A program made the position numbers and the translations under genes. Shown piece after piece: positions 22,113-27,931 of a DNA stretch of 64,000 nucleotides (positions are counted from its first letter, which is position 1; the number at the start of each line of letters is the position of its first letter). The notes beneath the pieces are model-generated. The model was not told where the DNA came from. It saw nothing but the letters and a program-made list of their open reading frames with translations, and searched no databases. Source of the DNA: Ruegeria sp. YS9 (GTDB taxonomy: Bacteria > Pseudomonadota > Alphaproteobacteria > Rhodobacterales > Rhodobacteraceae); NCBI RefSeq assembly GCF_024628725.1, contig NZ_CP102409.1, positions 2,203,001 to 2,267,000 of the forward strand, read 5' to 3'.

Positions 22113-22202
22113 ATGTCCGGAAGCGGAGTGCAAAAACTGGCCTACGCTGTGCTGTTGGTGCTGTTGTTTGGCGTCTGCACTGGTTTGCTCGGAGGTCTTT
22201 AA
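22113..22202 (+). CDS. Tiny membrane ORF, 29 aa, at head of the TelA operon
   Basis: ATG 22113 stands seven bases after a GGGGGG ribosome site. It encodes MSGSGVQKLAYAVLL followed by VLLFGVCTGLLGGL, a single hydrophobic helix with one cysteine. The last codons contain the GGAGGT ribosome site of the next gene, whose ATG is four bases after this stop. That arrangement suggests a translated leader or a small membrane subunit coupled to the XpaC-like gene. No family is recognised. Confidence 0.45.
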   Translation: MSGSGVQKLAYAVLLVLLFGVCTGLLGGL

Positions 22203-22205
22203 GCC

Positions 22206-23120
22206 ATGGCAAAGCGGTTCGGCGGCAAATACAGCCCACAGGGAGATGAATCGGAAAACGCCCCACTGCCGAGGGGTCAGTTTGACGGCGCACGGGTCGA
22301 GCCCGCTGGCGCACGTGCGAATATTCTGTTTCTACCCGCCATTCCTTTGGTGTTTCTGTCCCTGAACGACGGCGCGATTGGTATGACACTGGGGCTGGTC
22401 GCCGCTGGTTTTCTGACGGCGGCCGCATTCTTGCTGCGAGAAGGTCTGAGAGCTGAGGCCGCGTACAATGCCCGCAAAACCGCCCGACGCCCTGCTTTTC
22501 CGCGGAAGATATTTGCCAGTGTTCTCACCGGCCTTGGTGCTGGCCTTGCGTCTTACAGGTCCGAGTTTCTGGACGCTGAAGCGGCAGCGCAGGTTAGTCT
22601 GTTGGCCCCCGTGCTGTTTGGTGTTGCAGCGACCGTTCTGCATTCTGTCTCATTCGGGCTTGATCCGATGAAGAACAAGGGCATGGAGGGAGTCGACACC
22701 TTTCAGCAAGACCGCGTGGCGCGCGTGGTCGATGATGCCGAGAAACACTTGTCGGAAATGACGGATGCCATAAAACGCGCGGGCGATCGACGTATCGAAG
22801 CCCGGGTCGAGCGATTTCAGGACACCGCACGTGACCTGTTCCGCACGGTCGAGGAAGACCCACGCGATCTGGCTGGTGCCAGAAAATACCTGACCGTTTA
22901 TCTACAGGGCGCGCGTGATGCGACTGTCAAATTTGCCGATATCTACGCGCGCACCCGCGACGCGCAGGCACTGGCCGACTATTCCGCCCTGCTGGACGAT
23001 CTGGAACAGAATTTTGCCGCGCGTACGCGGAAAATGTTATTGGATGACCGCAGTGATCTGACGGTCGAAATCGACGTGCTGCGTGAAAGATTGCAGCGCG
23101 AAGGCGTCCGGCTGGACTGA
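22206..23120 (+). CDS. XpaC-like (5-bromo-4-chloroindolyl phosphate hydrolysis family) membrane protein
   Basis: This 304-aa protein has a polar N-terminus, hydrophobic hairpins at about residues 39-77 and 100-150, and then a long charged helical domain (about 160-304). The latter contains FQQDRVARVVDDAEKHLSEM and ARKYLTVYLQGARDAT, matching the XpaC family PF10112. XpaC was named for a Bacillus phenotype and its biochemical role is not settled. It is regularly found beside TelA. It is co-oriented with telA with a 29-bp gap, and its GGAGGT site lies inside the preceding mini-ORF. Confidence 0.83.
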   Translation: MAKRFGGKYSPQGDESENAPLPRGQFDGARVEPAGARANILFLPAIPLVFLSLNDGAIGMTLGLVAAGFLTAAAFLLREGLRAEAAYNARKTARRPAFPRKIFASVLTGLGAGLASYRSEFLDAEAAAQVSLLAPVLFGVAATVLHSVSFGLDPMKNKGMEGVDTFQQDRVARVVDDAEKHLSEMTDAIKRAGDRRIEARVERFQDTARDLFRTVEEDPRDLAGARKYLTVYLQGARDATVKFADIYARTRDAQALADYSALLDDLEQNFAARTRKMLLDDRSDLTVEIDVLRERLQREGVRLD

Positions 23121-23149
23121 CCGGCCATATTTGAGCGAGGAACATCCCC

Positions 23150-24340
23150 ATGTCCGATGAGATCAAGAAAAAGGCGGTACAGGCCGAAACTCTGGTACAG
23201 GAAGTCACCGCAGTTGCCCTGCCCGAACCACAGGCCGAGGTCGTGTCGCTGGAGGAAGCCGACGAACCCGTCAGCGCCGAAATCCGCAAGCGGATGAATG
23301 AAATCGACATGGACAACACCAATTCGATCGTCGCGTTCGGCTCGTCCGCGCAGGCCGAGTTGCAGGAGATCAGCCAGGCCATGCTTGCGGATGTGCGCAA
23401 CAAGGATGTCGGCCCGGCCGGTGACAGCCTGCGCAACATCGTAACCACGATACGCGGGTTCTCGGTCAGTGAACTAGACGTGCGCCGCGAGCGCAGCTGG
23501 TGGGAAAAACTGTTGGGCAGGGCTGCACCATTTGCGAAATTCACCGCCCAGTACGAAGAGGTTCAGGACCAGATAGACCGCATAACCGACGATCTACTGG
23601 GGCATGAGCATACGCTGCTCAAGGATATCAAGTCTTTGGACCTGCTGTATGAAAAGACCTTGGATTTCTATGATGAACTGGCGTTGTACATCGCTGCGGG
23701 CGAAGAGAAGCTGACCGAGCTGGACAGCCACGACATCCCTGAAAAGGAGGCCGAAGTTCAGGCCGCTCCGGAAGACCAGCAAGTGATGAAGGCGCAGGAA
23801 CTGCGTGACATGCGCGCGGCGCGGGACGACCTTGAACGCCGGGTTCATGACCTGAAACTGACACGACAGGTCACGATGCAGTCCCTGCCGTCGATCCGCT
23901 TGGTTCAGGAAAACGACAAATCGCTGGTCACCAAGATCAACTCGACACTGGTGAACACCGTCCCGCTTTGGGAAACGCAACTGGCCCAGGCGGTTACGAT
24001 CCAGCGCAGCGCCGAAGCCGCCGCCGCGGTGCGGGATGCCAATGACCTGACCAACGAGCTTTTGACCTCGAACGCAGCCAACCTGCGTGAATCGAACAAG
24101 ATGATCCGCGAAGAAATGGAGCGCGGTGTGTTCGACATCGAAGCAGTCAAGCAGGCCAATGCCGACCTGATTGGCACCATCAACGAAAGCCTTGCGATTG
24201 CGGACGAAGGCAAGGCCAAACGCGCCGCAGCCGAAGCCGAGTTGCAGAAGATGGAAAAGGAACTGCGCGACACTTTGGCGTCTGCCAAGGCACGGCGCGA
24301 CGGAACTGGCGACACTGCCGGTACGGCGGTACCCGGTTAA
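23150..24340 (+). CDS. telA: Toxic anion resistance protein, TelA family
   Basis: This 396-aa cytosolic, mostly coiled-coil protein of PF05816 contains GDSLRNIVTTIRGF, ERSWWEKLLGRAAPFAKF, ALYIAAGEEKL, LPSIRLVQENDKSLVTKINS and TVPLWETQLAQAV, all recognisable TelA blocks. Family members confer tellurite or antimicrobial resistance in some bacteria. The mechanism is unknown but probably concerns the membrane. It is second or third gene of the seven-gene rightward operon. The gene name reflects the family, not proven tellurite resistance. Confidence 0.92.
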   Translation: MSDEIKKKAVQAETLVQEVTAVALPEPQAEVVSLEEADEPVSAEIRKRMNEIDMDNTNSIVAFGSSAQAELQEISQAMLADVRNKDVGPAGDSLRNIVTTIRGFSVSELDVRRERSWWEKLLGRAAPFAKFTAQYEEVQDQIDRITDDLLGHEHTLLKDIKSLDLLYEKTLDFYDELALYIAAGEEKLTELDSHDIPEKEAEVQAAPEDQQVMKAQELRDMRAARDDLERRVHDLKLTRQVTMQSLPSIRLVQENDKSLVTKINSTLVNTVPLWETQLAQAVTIQRSAEAAAAVRDANDLTNELLTSNAANLRESNKMIREEMERGVFDIEAVKQANADLIGTINESLAIADEGKAKRAAAEAELQKMEKELRDTLASAKARRDGTGDTAGTAVPG

Positions 24341-24353
24341 GGGCGGGATCGGC

Positions 24354-25310
24354 GTGCGGGCCTTCGGTTACTTGAAAGGAACCTTGGGGATGGTATCGCT
24401 CTTGGCCTTGGCCAATTGCGACGAGACCCTGACGTCATCCGTTGTTCCACAACCTCGCCCGACACCCGCACCCGAGGCAGCCAATGCTTATGTGCCGCCA
24501 TCTGCCGCAAGTCAGGATCTGGCGCGCTTTTATCGACGGGTTGAACGGGACCTGCTGGTGCGGGGGCTTTTACGCACCGATGGGGGCGGCCCCGACACCC
24601 CCTATGATGCCGACGATCTGGCGCGGAATTTCGAAGCGATCGCGTTCTACAGCGAATATCCGACGCAAAGCGTCGCGGCTGGCTCGCGTCAGACGGACGG
24701 GCAACTCAGCCGATGGTCCGGCTCTGTCCGGATACAGACCGAGTTCGGCCCCTCCGTGCTTCCTTCTGCACGGCAGCAAGATGCAGATCAGGTTCGGTCC
24801 TTTGCCACCCGTCTGGCCAGATTGACCGATCATCCGGTTTCCGTCGTCTCCCGCAACGCCAATTTCCATGTCTTTTTTGCAGGCAAGGATGACAGCGCCT
24901 ATGTCGTATCCCGCCTGAAACAGCTGATCCCGAATATCAGTCAGGATTCGCTGAACCTGGTGGCCAATCCACGCGCCAATTTCGACTGTCTGGTGTTTGC
25001 GTCGGCTACGACCTCATCACCACACAGATACGTACGTGCCGTTTCCCTTATCCGGGCCGAATTGACGGATCTGGGCCGCCAAAGCTGCATTCACGAAGAA
25101 ATTGCTCAGGGTCTTGGCCTGTCCAATGACAGCCCGGCAGCGCGACCTTCGATTTTCAACGATGATGACGAATTTGCCCTGCTGACCAGTCACGACGAAA
25201 AGCTGCTGACGATGTTGTATGATCCGCGATTGCAGCCCGGCATAGACGTTGATGAAGCACGACCCATTGTACGAATAATCGCACATGAATTGATGGGGCA
25301 GCCGCTCTGA
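24354..25310 (+). CDS. DUF2927 protein with degenerate zincin-like motif
   Basis: This 318-aa protein starts at GTG 24354, 13 bp after the telA stop with GGGCGGG upstream (ATG 24390 is an alternative). A hydrophobic stretch TLGMVSLLALANC near residue 13 looks like an export signal or lipobox, although Asn before Cys is unusual. A Pro-rich linker follows. The C-terminal DUF2927 domain includes SVVSRNANFHVFFA, VSLIRAELTDLGRQSC, HEEIAQGLGLSNDSPAARPS and MLYDPRLQPGID. HEExxQGLGL resembles an HExxH protease site with the second His replaced by Gln. Confidence 0.85.
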   Translation: MRAFGYLKGTLGMVSLLALANCDETLTSSVVPQPRPTPAPEAANAYVPPSAASQDLARFYRRVERDLLVRGLLRTDGGGPDTPYDADDLARNFEAIAFYSEYPTQSVAAGSRQTDGQLSRWSGSVRIQTEFGPSVLPSARQQDADQVRSFATRLARLTDHPVSVVSRNANFHVFFAGKDDSAYVVSRLKQLIPNISQDSLNLVANPRANFDCLVFASATTSSPHRYVRAVSLIRAELTDLGRQSCIHEEIAQGLGLSNDSPAARPSIFNDDDEFALLTSHDEKLLTMLYDPRLQPGIDVDEARPIVRIIAHELMGQPL

Positions 25311-25332
25311 CCCCGATGACAGGAGAACCCAG

Positions 25333-26481
25333 ATGGGAATTTTCGATTTTCTGACCGGAGAATTCATTGATGTCATTCATTGGGTGGACGACACCCGTGA
25401 CACGATGGTCTGGCGGTTCGAACGCGAAGGCCACGAGATCAAGTATGGCGCCAAGCTGACCGTGCGCGAAGGTCAGGCGGCGGTATTCGTACACGAAGGC
25501 CAACTGGCGGATGTGTTTACGCCGGGCCTTTATATGCTCGAAACCAACAACATGCCGATCATGACGACGCTGCAACATTGGGATCACGGGTTCCAGTCGC
25601 CCTTCAAGTCCGAGATCTATTTCGTCAACACCACCCGGTTCAACGACCTGAAATGGGGCACCAAGAACCCGATCATGCTGCGCGACCCGGAATTCGGCCC
25701 GACCCGGATCCGCGCCTATGGCACTTATACGGTACGTGTGAAAGACCCGGCCAAGTTCCTGATCGAGATCGTGGGCACCGATGGTGAATTCACCATGGAC
25801 GAGATCAGCTTTCAGATCCGCAACATCATCGTGCAGGAATTCAGCCGGGTCATTGCAGGCTCGGGCATTCCGGTTCTGGACATGGCCGCCAACACCGCCG
25901 ATCTGGGCAAGCTGATCGCGGCCGAGGTCTCACCCGTGCTGGACGGATACGGGCTGGAGATGCCTGAATTCTACATCGAGAACATCTCGCTGCCGCCGGC
26001 GGTCGAGGCAGCGCTGGACAAGCGCACCTCGATGGGGCTAGCGGGGGATCTGGGCAAGTTTACGCAGTATTCCGCAGCCGAGGCGATGACGGCGGCCGCC
26101 AGCAACCCAAACGGCGGTGGCGGCATGGGCGCTGGCCTTGGTATGGGAATGGGCATGGCGATGGCGAACCAGATGTCGAACATGGCAGCGGGTCGGCCGT
26201 CAGGCCCGTGGGGCGCGCCCGCGCCCGCTGCCCCGCAACCGTCTGCGCATGTCGCCCCGCCGCCCCCGCCGCCGGTCGAGCATGTGTGGCACATCGCGGT
26301 GGACGGACAGACCAGCGGCCCGTTCTCGAAGGCCAAGATGGGCCGCATGGCCAGCGACGGCGAGATCACGCGCGACACCTACGTGTGGACGCCCGGTCAG
26401 GACGGCTGGAAGAAGGCGGGCGAGGTGCAGGAACTGGCGCAACTGTTCACCATTCTGCCGCCGCCCCCGCCCGGCGCATGA
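25333..26481 (+). CDS. SPFH-domain protein with C-terminal GYF_2 domain
   Basis: This 382-aa protein has a stomatin/flotillin-type SPFH domain at about residues 25-235 (VREGQAAVFVHEGQLADVF, RAYGTYTVRVKDPAKFL). It is of the COG4260 virion-core-like type. A Gly/Met-rich linker (GMGAGLGMGMGMAMANQM) and a Pro-rich linker follow. A GYF_2 domain lies at about 317-373 (VDGQTSGPFSKAKMGRM, YVWTPGQDGWKKAGEV), and the protein ends PPPPPGA. There is no clear transmembrane helix, so association with membrane is probably peripheral. GYF domains bind Pro-rich peptides, so self-association through its own linker is possible. Confidence 0.88.
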   Translation: MGIFDFLTGEFIDVIHWVDDTRDTMVWRFEREGHEIKYGAKLTVREGQAAVFVHEGQLADVFTPGLYMLETNNMPIMTTLQHWDHGFQSPFKSEIYFVNTTRFNDLKWGTKNPIMLRDPEFGPTRIRAYGTYTVRVKDPAKFLIEIVGTDGEFTMDEISFQIRNIIVQEFSRVIAGSGIPVLDMAANTADLGKLIAAEVSPVLDGYGLEMPEFYIENISLPPAVEAALDKRTSMGLAGDLGKFTQYSAAEAMTAAASNPNGGGGMGAGLGMGMGMAMANQMSNMAAGRPSGPWGAPAPAAPQPSAHVAPPPPPPVEHVWHIAVDGQTSGPFSKAKMGRMASDGEITRDTYVWTPGQDGWKKAGEVQELAQLFTILPPPPPGA

Positions 26482-26490
26482 GGGCACCGC

Positions 26491-26808
26491 ATGGCCGGCC
26501 TTGGAAAACGCTCGAAAAAGGGCAGGCGCAAGACGCGTCCCGACCCGCATTTCGTCTGCCCTTGCTGCGACTATGTCACCCTTTCGGAACGCGGAAAGTA
26601 CCTGATCTGCCCGATCTGTTTCTGGGAGGACGAGGACATCCATTATGACACGAACCCACGCGAGCCCTCGGCGGCCAATCACGGCCTGACGCTGGCCGAG
26701 GGGCGAAAAAATTTCAGGACGATCGGGGCCTGCGAAGCCGAAATGCTGCCGCATGTCCTGCCCGAGGAAGACCGCGCGGACTATCTCTACTTCCCTCTCA
26801 AGGACTGA
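26491..26808 (+). CDS. CPCC-type cysteine-rich protein
   Basis: This 105-aa protein has a basic N-terminus followed by FVCPCCDYVTL and YLICPICFWEDE, two CxxC knuckles forming one zinc-ribbon-like unit (CPCC family, PF14206). The C-terminal PSAANHGLTLAEGRKNF is typical of the same family. Function is unknown. It begins nine bases after the SPFH gene and ends seven bases before the next zinc-ribbon gene, so it belongs to the operon. Confidence 0.85.
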   Translation: MAGLGKRSKKGRRKTRPDPHFVCPCCDYVTLSERGKYLICPICFWEDEDIHYDTNPREPSAANHGLTLAEGRKNFRTIGACEAEMLPHVLPEEDRADYLYFPLKD

Positions 26809-26815
26809 GCGCCTC

Positions 26816-27931
26816 ATGACTCATGCCCCTGCCCCATCACCTGATTTTGCGGAACACCGTTTTCCGTGTGACCAGTGCGGCGCGGACTATCGGTTCGACC
26901 CGAAATCCGGCACGCTGACCTGCGATCACTGCGGCCATTCCGAACCGATCGGGGCTGGCCCCTGGGGCGGCGCCAGCCTGCGCGAGTTGGATTTCGACGC
27001 GGCCATCGCCGACCGCTTGCCCGACAGTGAAATCGAAGAGACACGGGTTCTGTCCTGCCCGAACTGTGCGGCGCAGGTTGAATTCGACCCCAACACCCAT
27101 GCTGCGGAATGCCCGTTCTGCGCCACTCCGGTCGTGACGGACACCGGGGTGAACCGGCATATCAAACCGAAGGGTGTTCTGCCTTTTGCTCTGGATGAAC
27201 GCTCGGCCCACAGGGCGATGAGCGATTGGCTGGGGCGGCTGTGGTTCGCGCCGAACGGGCTCAAGGACTATGCCCGCAAGGGCCGCAGGATGCAGGGCAT
27301 CTATGTGCCCTACTGGACCTTTGATGCCGACACGAAATCGGCCTATCGCGGAGAGCGCGGCACGGTCTACTATGAAACCCGCACCGTCATGCGGGATGGC
27401 AAACGGGTGCAACAACAGGTGCCCAAGGTCCGCTGGACGCCCAAGTCCGGCCGGGTGGCCCGGTTCTTTGACGACGTGCTGGTTTTGGCTTCAAGGTCTC
27501 TGCCCAAGGCTTACACGGATGCTCTGGAGCCTTGGGATCTCCCGGCTCTGGAACCCTACCAGCCAGAATACCTCGCCGGTTTTCGGGCCGAGGCCTATAC
27601 GGTTGAACTGAAAGAGGGATATGCCGAGGCCCGCGCACATATGGCCCGCGTGATCGAGCGTGATGTACGTTTTGATATTGGGGGCGACAGGCAACGTATC
27701 CATGCGGTGGACACTGATGTGCGCGATGTCACGTTGAAACATATCCTGCTGCCGGTCTGGTTGGCGGCCTATAAGTATCGCGGCCAGACCTATCGTTTCG
27801 TGGTGAACGGCCGGACCGGTCGGGTTCAGGGAGAGCGCCCCTGGTCGGCAATAAAGATCACGATCGCCGTTGTACTTGGCCTGCTGGTTGCCGCAGGTGT
27901 CGGATATTTGATGGCAACAGGACAGCAATAA
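26816..27931 (+). CDS. Zinc-ribbon membrane-anchored protein
   Basis: This 371-aa protein has two N-terminal zinc ribbons (FPCDQCGADYRF...CDHCGHSE and LSCPNCAAQVEF...CPFCATPVV). A beta-rich middle domain follows (GIYVPYWTFDADTKSAYRGE, KHILLPVWLAAYKYRGQTY). The C-terminal transmembrane helix is TIAVVLGLLVAAGVGYLMA. Similar proteins are sometimes called primosomal-N'-like or TFIIB-type zinc finger proteins, but no helicase motifs are present. ATG 26816 is used because the first ribbon begins near residue 18. It is the last gene of the TelA/SPFH operon. Confidence 0.85.
   Translation: MTHAPAPSPDFAEHRFPCDQCGADYRFDPKSGTLTCDHCGHSEPIGAGPWGGASLRELDFDAAIADRLPDSEIEETRVLSCPNCAAQVEFDPNTHAAECPFCATPVVTDTGVNRHIKPKGVLPFALDERSAHRAMSDWLGRLWFAPNGLKDYARKGRRMQGIYVPYWTFDADTKSAYRGERGTVYYETRTVMRDGKRVQQQVPKVRWTPKSGRVARFFDDVLVLASRSLPKAYTDALEPWDLPALEPYQPEYLAGFRAEAYTVELKEGYAEARAHMARVIERDVRFDIGGDRQRIHAVDTDVRDVTLKHILLPVWLAAYKYRGQTYRFVVNGRTGRVQGERPWSAIKITIAVVLGLLVAAGVGYLMATGQQ

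Follow-up and report, generated by a model that had tools for sequence, protein, structure and literature searches.

What is the function of a gene block in which proteins of the TelA and XpaC families are encoded together with an SPFH protein, a zinc ribbon membrane protein and a DUF2927 lipoprotein? Such a block occupies positions 22113-27931 of a 64,000-nucleotide stretch of the Ruegeria sp. YS9 genome (contig NZ_CP102409.1, positions 2,203,001 to 2,267,000), which is referred to here as the window. By analogy with Bacillus subtilis, the block probably encodes a housekeeping, PspA-independent complex for envelope maintenance, namely a platform similar to YdjG and YdjI with which XpaC and TelA are co-encoded instead of PspA. 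The new aspect is that two membrane-stress modules, separate in Bacillus, are joined in nearly all examined Rhodobacterales and are accompanied by a DUF2927 lipoprotein and a microprotein. An earlier note on this DNA, made from the letters alone, supposed that the gene set had not been described as one system. We found no such description in the literature searched, in which few subscription papers were covered; TelA-XpaC and the pair of SPFH and double zinc ribbon protein (ZnR) have each been described separately.

The block consists of seven open reading frames (ORFs), all on the + strand, with intergenic gaps of 3, 29, 13, 22, 9 and 7 nucleotides (nt) in order. Coordinates, strand and Pfam matches agree with the seven co-oriented ORFs, the gaps of 3-29 nt and the domain names of the earlier note.

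22113..22202, + strand: tiny ORF for a single-helix microprotein of 29 amino acids (aa), MSGSGVQKLAYAVLLVLLFGVCTGLLGGL, with a hydropathy peak of 2.36; it abuts xpaC
22206..23120, + strand: xpaC; PF10112 (1.2e-29) in the C-terminal domain, N-terminal hydrophobic segments forming about 3-4 helices
23150..24340, + strand: telA, a soluble protein with long helices; PF05816 (3e-108), no hydrophobic segment by hydropathy
24354..25310, + strand: DUF2927 lipoprotein, a predicted pseudo-metzincin; PF11150 (1.3e-55), GTG start assigned in this analysis
25333..26481, + strand: SPFH protein (Band_7_1, YdjI-like); PF13421 (1.1e-101), C-terminal GYF_2 domain PF14237 (3e-22)
26491..26808, + strand: CPCC protein, an accessory insert; PF14206 (2.4e-24)
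26816..27931, + strand: ZnR, YdjG-like, with one C-terminal membrane helix (hydrophobic segment 342-370)

By hydropathy, the hydrophobic segments of XpaC lie at residues 35-78 and 126-152, and the SPFH protein has none. A single zinc-ribbon Pfam match of ZnR exceeds the cut-off (PF11781, 4.4e-7); the 8 cysteines that make up its two ribbons are all invariant across 7 homologues. In public records, ZnR and its homologues are named TFIIB-type zinc finger, RPC12/RpoP or primosomal protein N'/PriA helicase, which is likely to be a misnaming.

The block is conserved as a unit. Among 101 Rhodobacterales genomes, DUF2927 is present in 100 and a full-strength SPFH match in 98, and the two are located within 5 kb of each other in 93 of these 98; four of the others have no listed DUF2927 match, and the fifth (G048) carries DUF2927 on a different contig. 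Two genomes, G081 and G011, possess DUF2927 without a strong SPFH match. Named loci were also surveyed with SPFH as the seed; the 80 best were kept out of at least 579 candidates, so that close relatives are over-represented. These loci come from Rhodobacterales or from records whose titles say no more than Alphaproteobacteria. The complete order xpaC-telA-DUF2927-SPFH-ZnR is found in 73 of these 80 loci, and five of the seven incomplete ones are interrupted by contig ends. The closest of the 80 is that of Ruegeria (Silicibacter) lacuscaerulensis, whose SPFH protein is 97% identical; many close DUF2927 homologues also bear the name Ruegeria. All five core genes occur in 19 of 21 wide Rhodobacterales regions (L033-L052 and L084), the exceptions being L037, without an XpaC match, and L051, without a ZnR match. 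In the shorter regions L003-L032, TelA, DUF2927 and SPFH occur together in 29/30, the exception being L025, whose 3.7 kb stretch showed no SPFH.

The association of SPFH with ZnR, which the earlier note had also drawn, recurs on plasmids of other phyla. Nine plasmid regions gave matches to SPFH or ZnR, and five of them have a clear ZnR neighbour: ZnR homologues follow SPFH in Vibrio (357 bits), Comamonas (306) and Tsukamurella (258), a Paracoccus megaplasmid carries the pair with telA and DUF2927 also in order, and Enterococcus gallinarum shows the order SPFH-ZnR-TPM, with the SPFH and TPM domains confirmed by Pfam. The ZnR profile of the window family matches the Enterococcus protein with 147.9 bits over nearly its entire length, but this region was reached by a ZnR query and is therefore no independent test of the pairing. 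ZnR scores were weak in the Burkholderia (21 bits) and Bacteroides (12 bits) regions, and no ZnR neighbour was found beside SPFH in the Butyrivibrio region by profile or in the Novosphingobium region by annotation only. In the latter (L210, Novosphingobium sp. ES2-1), SPFH is followed by DUF4178, DUF350 and polyamine aminopropyltransferase genes.

As listed above, the SPFH protein ends in a GYF_2 domain. Its closest solved relative is the GYF domain of Myxococcus AglX (7z3c; 5.3e-6 with the window protein and 9.3e-10 with the alignment), which was the sole clear match in searches of PDB sequences with TelA, SPFH, DUF2927 and ZnR; no whole-protein relative was found there. Proline runs flank GYF_2 on either side in the window protein, so that self-association of SPFH through GYF-proline contacts seems possible.

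One of the closest known arrangements is the pspA-ydjG-ydjH-ydjI operon of B. subtilis, which as described likewise combines a soluble SPFH protein with a membrane protein carrying two zinc ribbons. According to PMC11237479, its parts, to which those of the Enterococcus region correspond, are a band-7 protein with a zinc ribbon, YdjG with two zinc ribbons, an NTF2-like domain and a transmembrane segment, and YdjH with a TPM domain. PspA foci are reported to require YdjI, and YdjG and YdjH are needed to bring YdjI and PspA to the membrane (PMC8581546). ZnR resembles YdjG in its ribbons, middle domain and single membrane helix, the alignment being made to the Enterococcus ZnR and not to B. subtilis YdjG. 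The differences from the described operon are nevertheless clear: the block has XpaC, TelA, DUF2927 and the microprotein in place of PspA and TPM, and its SPFH protein bears GYF_2 where YdjI has a C-terminal zinc ribbon. No PF04012 (PspA) match was obtained in the operon ORFs or elsewhere in this genome. Operons of band-7 proteins associated with the phage shock protein (PSP) system likewise use the band-7 protein as a membrane-complex partner, but the main text of PMC11237479, which surveys them, mentions neither TelA nor XpaC.

The other half of the block also has relatives among envelope-stress genes. XpaC and TelA family genes stand side by side in xpaC-yaaN of B. subtilis and in lmo1966-lmo1967 of Listeria (PMC3498285, PMC12791056), each being, as described, a two-gene operon without joined SPFH and ZnR. 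Within the sigma-W regulon of B. subtilis, xpaC-yaaN counts as a core operon and pspA-ydjGHI as a secondary one (PMC3498285). Since the two are separate in Bacillus, relatives of both appear to be joined here in one operon without PspA, and the link to envelope stress in the earlier note agrees with these accounts for both halves (PMC3498285, PMC8581546). The TelA and XpaC families have been linked to tellurite and cell-envelope antimicrobials in several bacteria, with a mechanism termed unknown or unproven in the same sources (PMC12791056, PMC7864038). Disruption of Listeria lmo1967 is reported to raise susceptibility 4-fold to nisin and 2-fold to tellurite (PMC12791056, citing Collins 2010), and the xpaC transcript is 7-fold higher in a liaX-region mutant of Enterococcus faecium (PMC10269926). 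In a resistance mutant of Lactococcus, an XpaC-like gene was mutated along with others and its role was deemed uncertain (PMC7864038), while Paracoccus expresses TelA in plastic biofilm (PMC11962581). Ter/TelA-type stress clusters, such as that of the Lactococcus plasmid pFI430 with TelA, YceG and TerD genes, share the TelA family with the block, whose ORFs include no YceG, TerD or TerC-type gene. Anantharaman, Iyer and Aravind reportedly treat both TelA and XpaC in their 2012 survey of Ter systems.

The DUF2927 protein would be the outer-face component of the block. The exported protein of the earlier note is more exactly a lipoprotein, a lipobox being found in 64/71 loci. Its structural model is confident (predicted local distance difference test, pLDDT, 92.3; predicted template modelling score, pTM, 0.91) and matches a metzincin-type fold, the matches being the matrix metalloproteases MMP7 and MMP12 and karilysin. 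The degenerate HExxH of the earlier note is indeed a degenerate metalloprotease motif, and its exact conserved form is EExxQxxGxxND, which replaces the catalytic HExxHxxG in 107 of 119 ORFs, a set that includes several loci of one genus and some genomes twice. The modelled protein therefore has the fold of the matrix metalloprotease type of metzincins but not their HExxHxxG histidines, and since these are replaced, DUF2927 is probably a pseudo-metzincin that neither binds zinc nor cleaves. Six distant members (L062, L064, L065, L066, L068 and L071) retain an intact HExxHxxG and, judging from their motif, are possibly active metallopeptidases in the same Pfam family; most of them have a further histidine at position 12, as HExxHxxGxxxH. 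At least 4198 homologues of the protein were detected (E 1e-3), and no paper on DUF2927 was found in the literature searched, which covered few subscription papers. The pseudo-metzincin reading would thus be a first structural idea for the family.

A second DUF2927 gene is located apart from the operon in the same genome (L072, contig C1, about 1,782,600-1,786,700). It encodes 455-469 aa with EExxQxxGxxND, is preceded by genes for an AAA (MoxR-like) ATPase and a GNAT protein and followed by a VWA/CoxE gene, and a similar long copy is seen in many relatives.

The tiny membrane ORF of the earlier note is real. A hydrophobic single-helix ORF of 23-30 aa abuts xpaC in 90/98 loci, and in all but one of the 90 its stop falls between -4 and +5 nt relative to the start of xpaC; a comparable search gave 0/69 before SPFH and 14/4,000 at random start codons. 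The search window was -40 to +20 nt and that of the controls narrower, -5 to +6 nt, into which the 89 also fit. Of the eight loci without the ORF, L138 and L168 gave one in another search and L074-L076 lie outside Rhodobacterales; in L073, also outside the order, the tiny ORF is 17 nt off and may be a chance occurrence. Proportions of synonymous (pS, mean 0.52) and nonsynonymous (pN, 0.33) differences over 324 pairs are near saturation, and although off-frame controls point in the right direction, we rely instead on the position of the ORF and on the control searches above. We know of no annotated family for this microprotein. It belongs to a size class frequently overlooked by gene callers and represents a new regulatory candidate.

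The core extends beyond the order in a reduced form. In 142 alphaproteobacterial genomes, mostly one per family, TelA exceeds the cut-off in 12, XpaC in 9 and DUF2927 in 17, and SPFH reaches at least 240 bits in 7. XpaC and TelA are adjacent (within 3 kb) in all nine genomes with XpaC, and SPFH adjoins TelA, XpaC and ZnR in six of the seven with SPFH; in the seventh (G112), TelA and SPFH are distant. Two of the six are Rhodobacteraceae and four belong to other families, in which DUF2927 is not placed between TelA and SPFH, a position that was observed in Rhodobacterales only. It therefore looks as if XpaC-TelA-SPFH-ZnR forms a wider core to which DUF2927 was added in the Rhodobacterales lineage. 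The earlier note would have been refuted in part by co-occurrence confined to close relatives; the core genes, however, lie side by side in four further families of Alphaproteobacteria, though DUF2927 was seen in its position in the order only. Because the linkage of TelA-XpaC to SPFH-ZnR is fixed, we hypothesize that TelA and XpaC are partners of the membrane platform. In G427 (L087), a genome from a different class of this phylum, a divergent SPFH-like protein comes after XpaC-TelA; it contains GYF_2, and its Band_7_1 match is sub-threshold.

In the mechanism that we propose, ZnR would be anchored in the inner membrane through its C-terminal helix and recruit the soluble SPFH protein, which may then oligomerise on the membrane while its GYF_2 domain binds proline-rich segments, either its own flanks or those of a partner. 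XpaC, probably with the microprotein, would carry the helical TelA to the ZnR-SPFH site. On the outer face, the DUF2927 lipoprotein may use the cleft of its former active site to bind a peptide or protein without cutting it, and thereby report envelope damage. The presumed output is tolerance of membrane-active antimicrobials and toxic oxyanions. The interpretation of the earlier note is partly supported, namely in the conserved unit, the SPFH-ZnR pair, the exported DUF2927 and the envelope-stress relatives; its phage defence is not, and CPCC is not a core adaptor.

Several observations weigh against an envelope-maintenance complex of this kind. A TPM (YdjH) gene is absent from the operon: neither its ORFs nor the flanking genes gave a PF04536 match at 0.1. 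PspA (PF04012) exceeds the cut-off in 37/101 genomes of the order, so that the block is not a simple replacement of PspA. TelA is found without nearby SPFH in 6 of the 12 genomes of the class with TelA and can therefore act without the SPFH platform; across the phylum, TelA exceeds the cut-off in 45/299 genomes, most fetched regions having TelA without SPFH. Two named loci (L161 and L173) hold SPFH-ZnR with the remaining core genes not within about 9 kb, and no experiment on the operon was found in the literature searched. Finally, TelA shows no detectable homology to PspA, and the candidate relationship to PspA/ESCRT-III was not adopted: hhalign of 51 TelA against 18 PspA sequences returned a probability of 2%. 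The TelA alignment is shallow (mean identity 83%), however, and the missing match therefore proves little.

Without detectable homology, any replacement of PspA by TelA would be functional only. The TelA model, of moderate confidence (pLDDT 76.4, pTM 0.65), contains helices at 127-205, 208-284 and 288-381, and its Foldseek matches were weak and to long helical proteins only (best E 0.026), for which reason they were not used. We tentatively entertain a more specific version, which is possible but rather doubtful: a PspA-independent membrane-repair machine in which TelA, docked by XpaC and the microprotein, is the oligomeric effector of the SPFH-ZnR platform, and the catalytically dead MMP-like lipoprotein is a periplasmic sensor binding unfolded or antimicrobial peptides.

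If the block served chiefly for resistance to toxic oxyanions such as tellurite, TelA-XpaC would do the work and SPFH, ZnR and DUF2927 would be supporting membrane proteins. TelA is named for tellurite, R. sphaeroides telA is among the listed chromosomal tellurite determinants (PMC6955997, citing O'Gara 1997), and the Listeria mutant described above is more tellurite-susceptible. However, the reported nisin effect in that mutant is the larger one, neither the operon ORFs nor the two genes flanking them include a TerC/TerD-type gene or one for oxyanion reduction, and near-universal presence in the order suits a general role better. We therefore regard this explanation as unlikely.

Also improbable, in our judgement, is that DUF2927 acts independently in quality control or assembly, binding unfolded periplasmic proteins, and is only co-expressed with the membrane platform in a loose grouping of envelope genes. 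The second gene apart from the operon implies that the domain needs neither TelA nor SPFH to work, other families carry the core without it, and accessory genes enter the core junctions; yet DUF2927 stays between telA and SPFH in the 73 complete named loci and beside SPFH in the 93 order genomes counted above.

PSP-type relatives react to membrane insults including phage proteins, and the SPFH-ZnR pair of a Vibrio coralliilyticus plasmid (L184) adjoins oppositely oriented genes for TIR-domain and TRAFs-binding proteins, but an anti-phage or bacteriocin defence system, as the earlier note had proposed, is very improbable, since PADLOC gave no family match at 1e-3 (one weak match at E 0.016) and the block is present and syntenic in almost every genome of the order, where a defence island would be patchy, with an RluB-like neighbour in 60/80 named loci.

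This neighbour, an RluB-like pseudouridine synthase, lies upstream of the block in the window, and a nitroreductase, nearby in 41/80 named loci, lies downstream. A scan for promoters and terminators was uninformative (1 and 5 sites versus shuffle means of 2.0 and 5.6). The CPCC protein, which the earlier note had included in the operon, was rejected as a core gene, as it is present in 1/80 named loci (L103) and was not found by phmmer at 1e-10 in loci L033-L102. Its place between SPFH and ZnR is taken in 21/80 named loci by a gene for a cytochrome b561-like membrane protein, which is also seen at this junction in, for example, L038, L042, L045, L046, L048 and L050. GNAT, lactate permease and DUF6338 genes are further junction inserts among relatives. 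The core junctions therefore admit varied accessory genes, of which CPCC is one.

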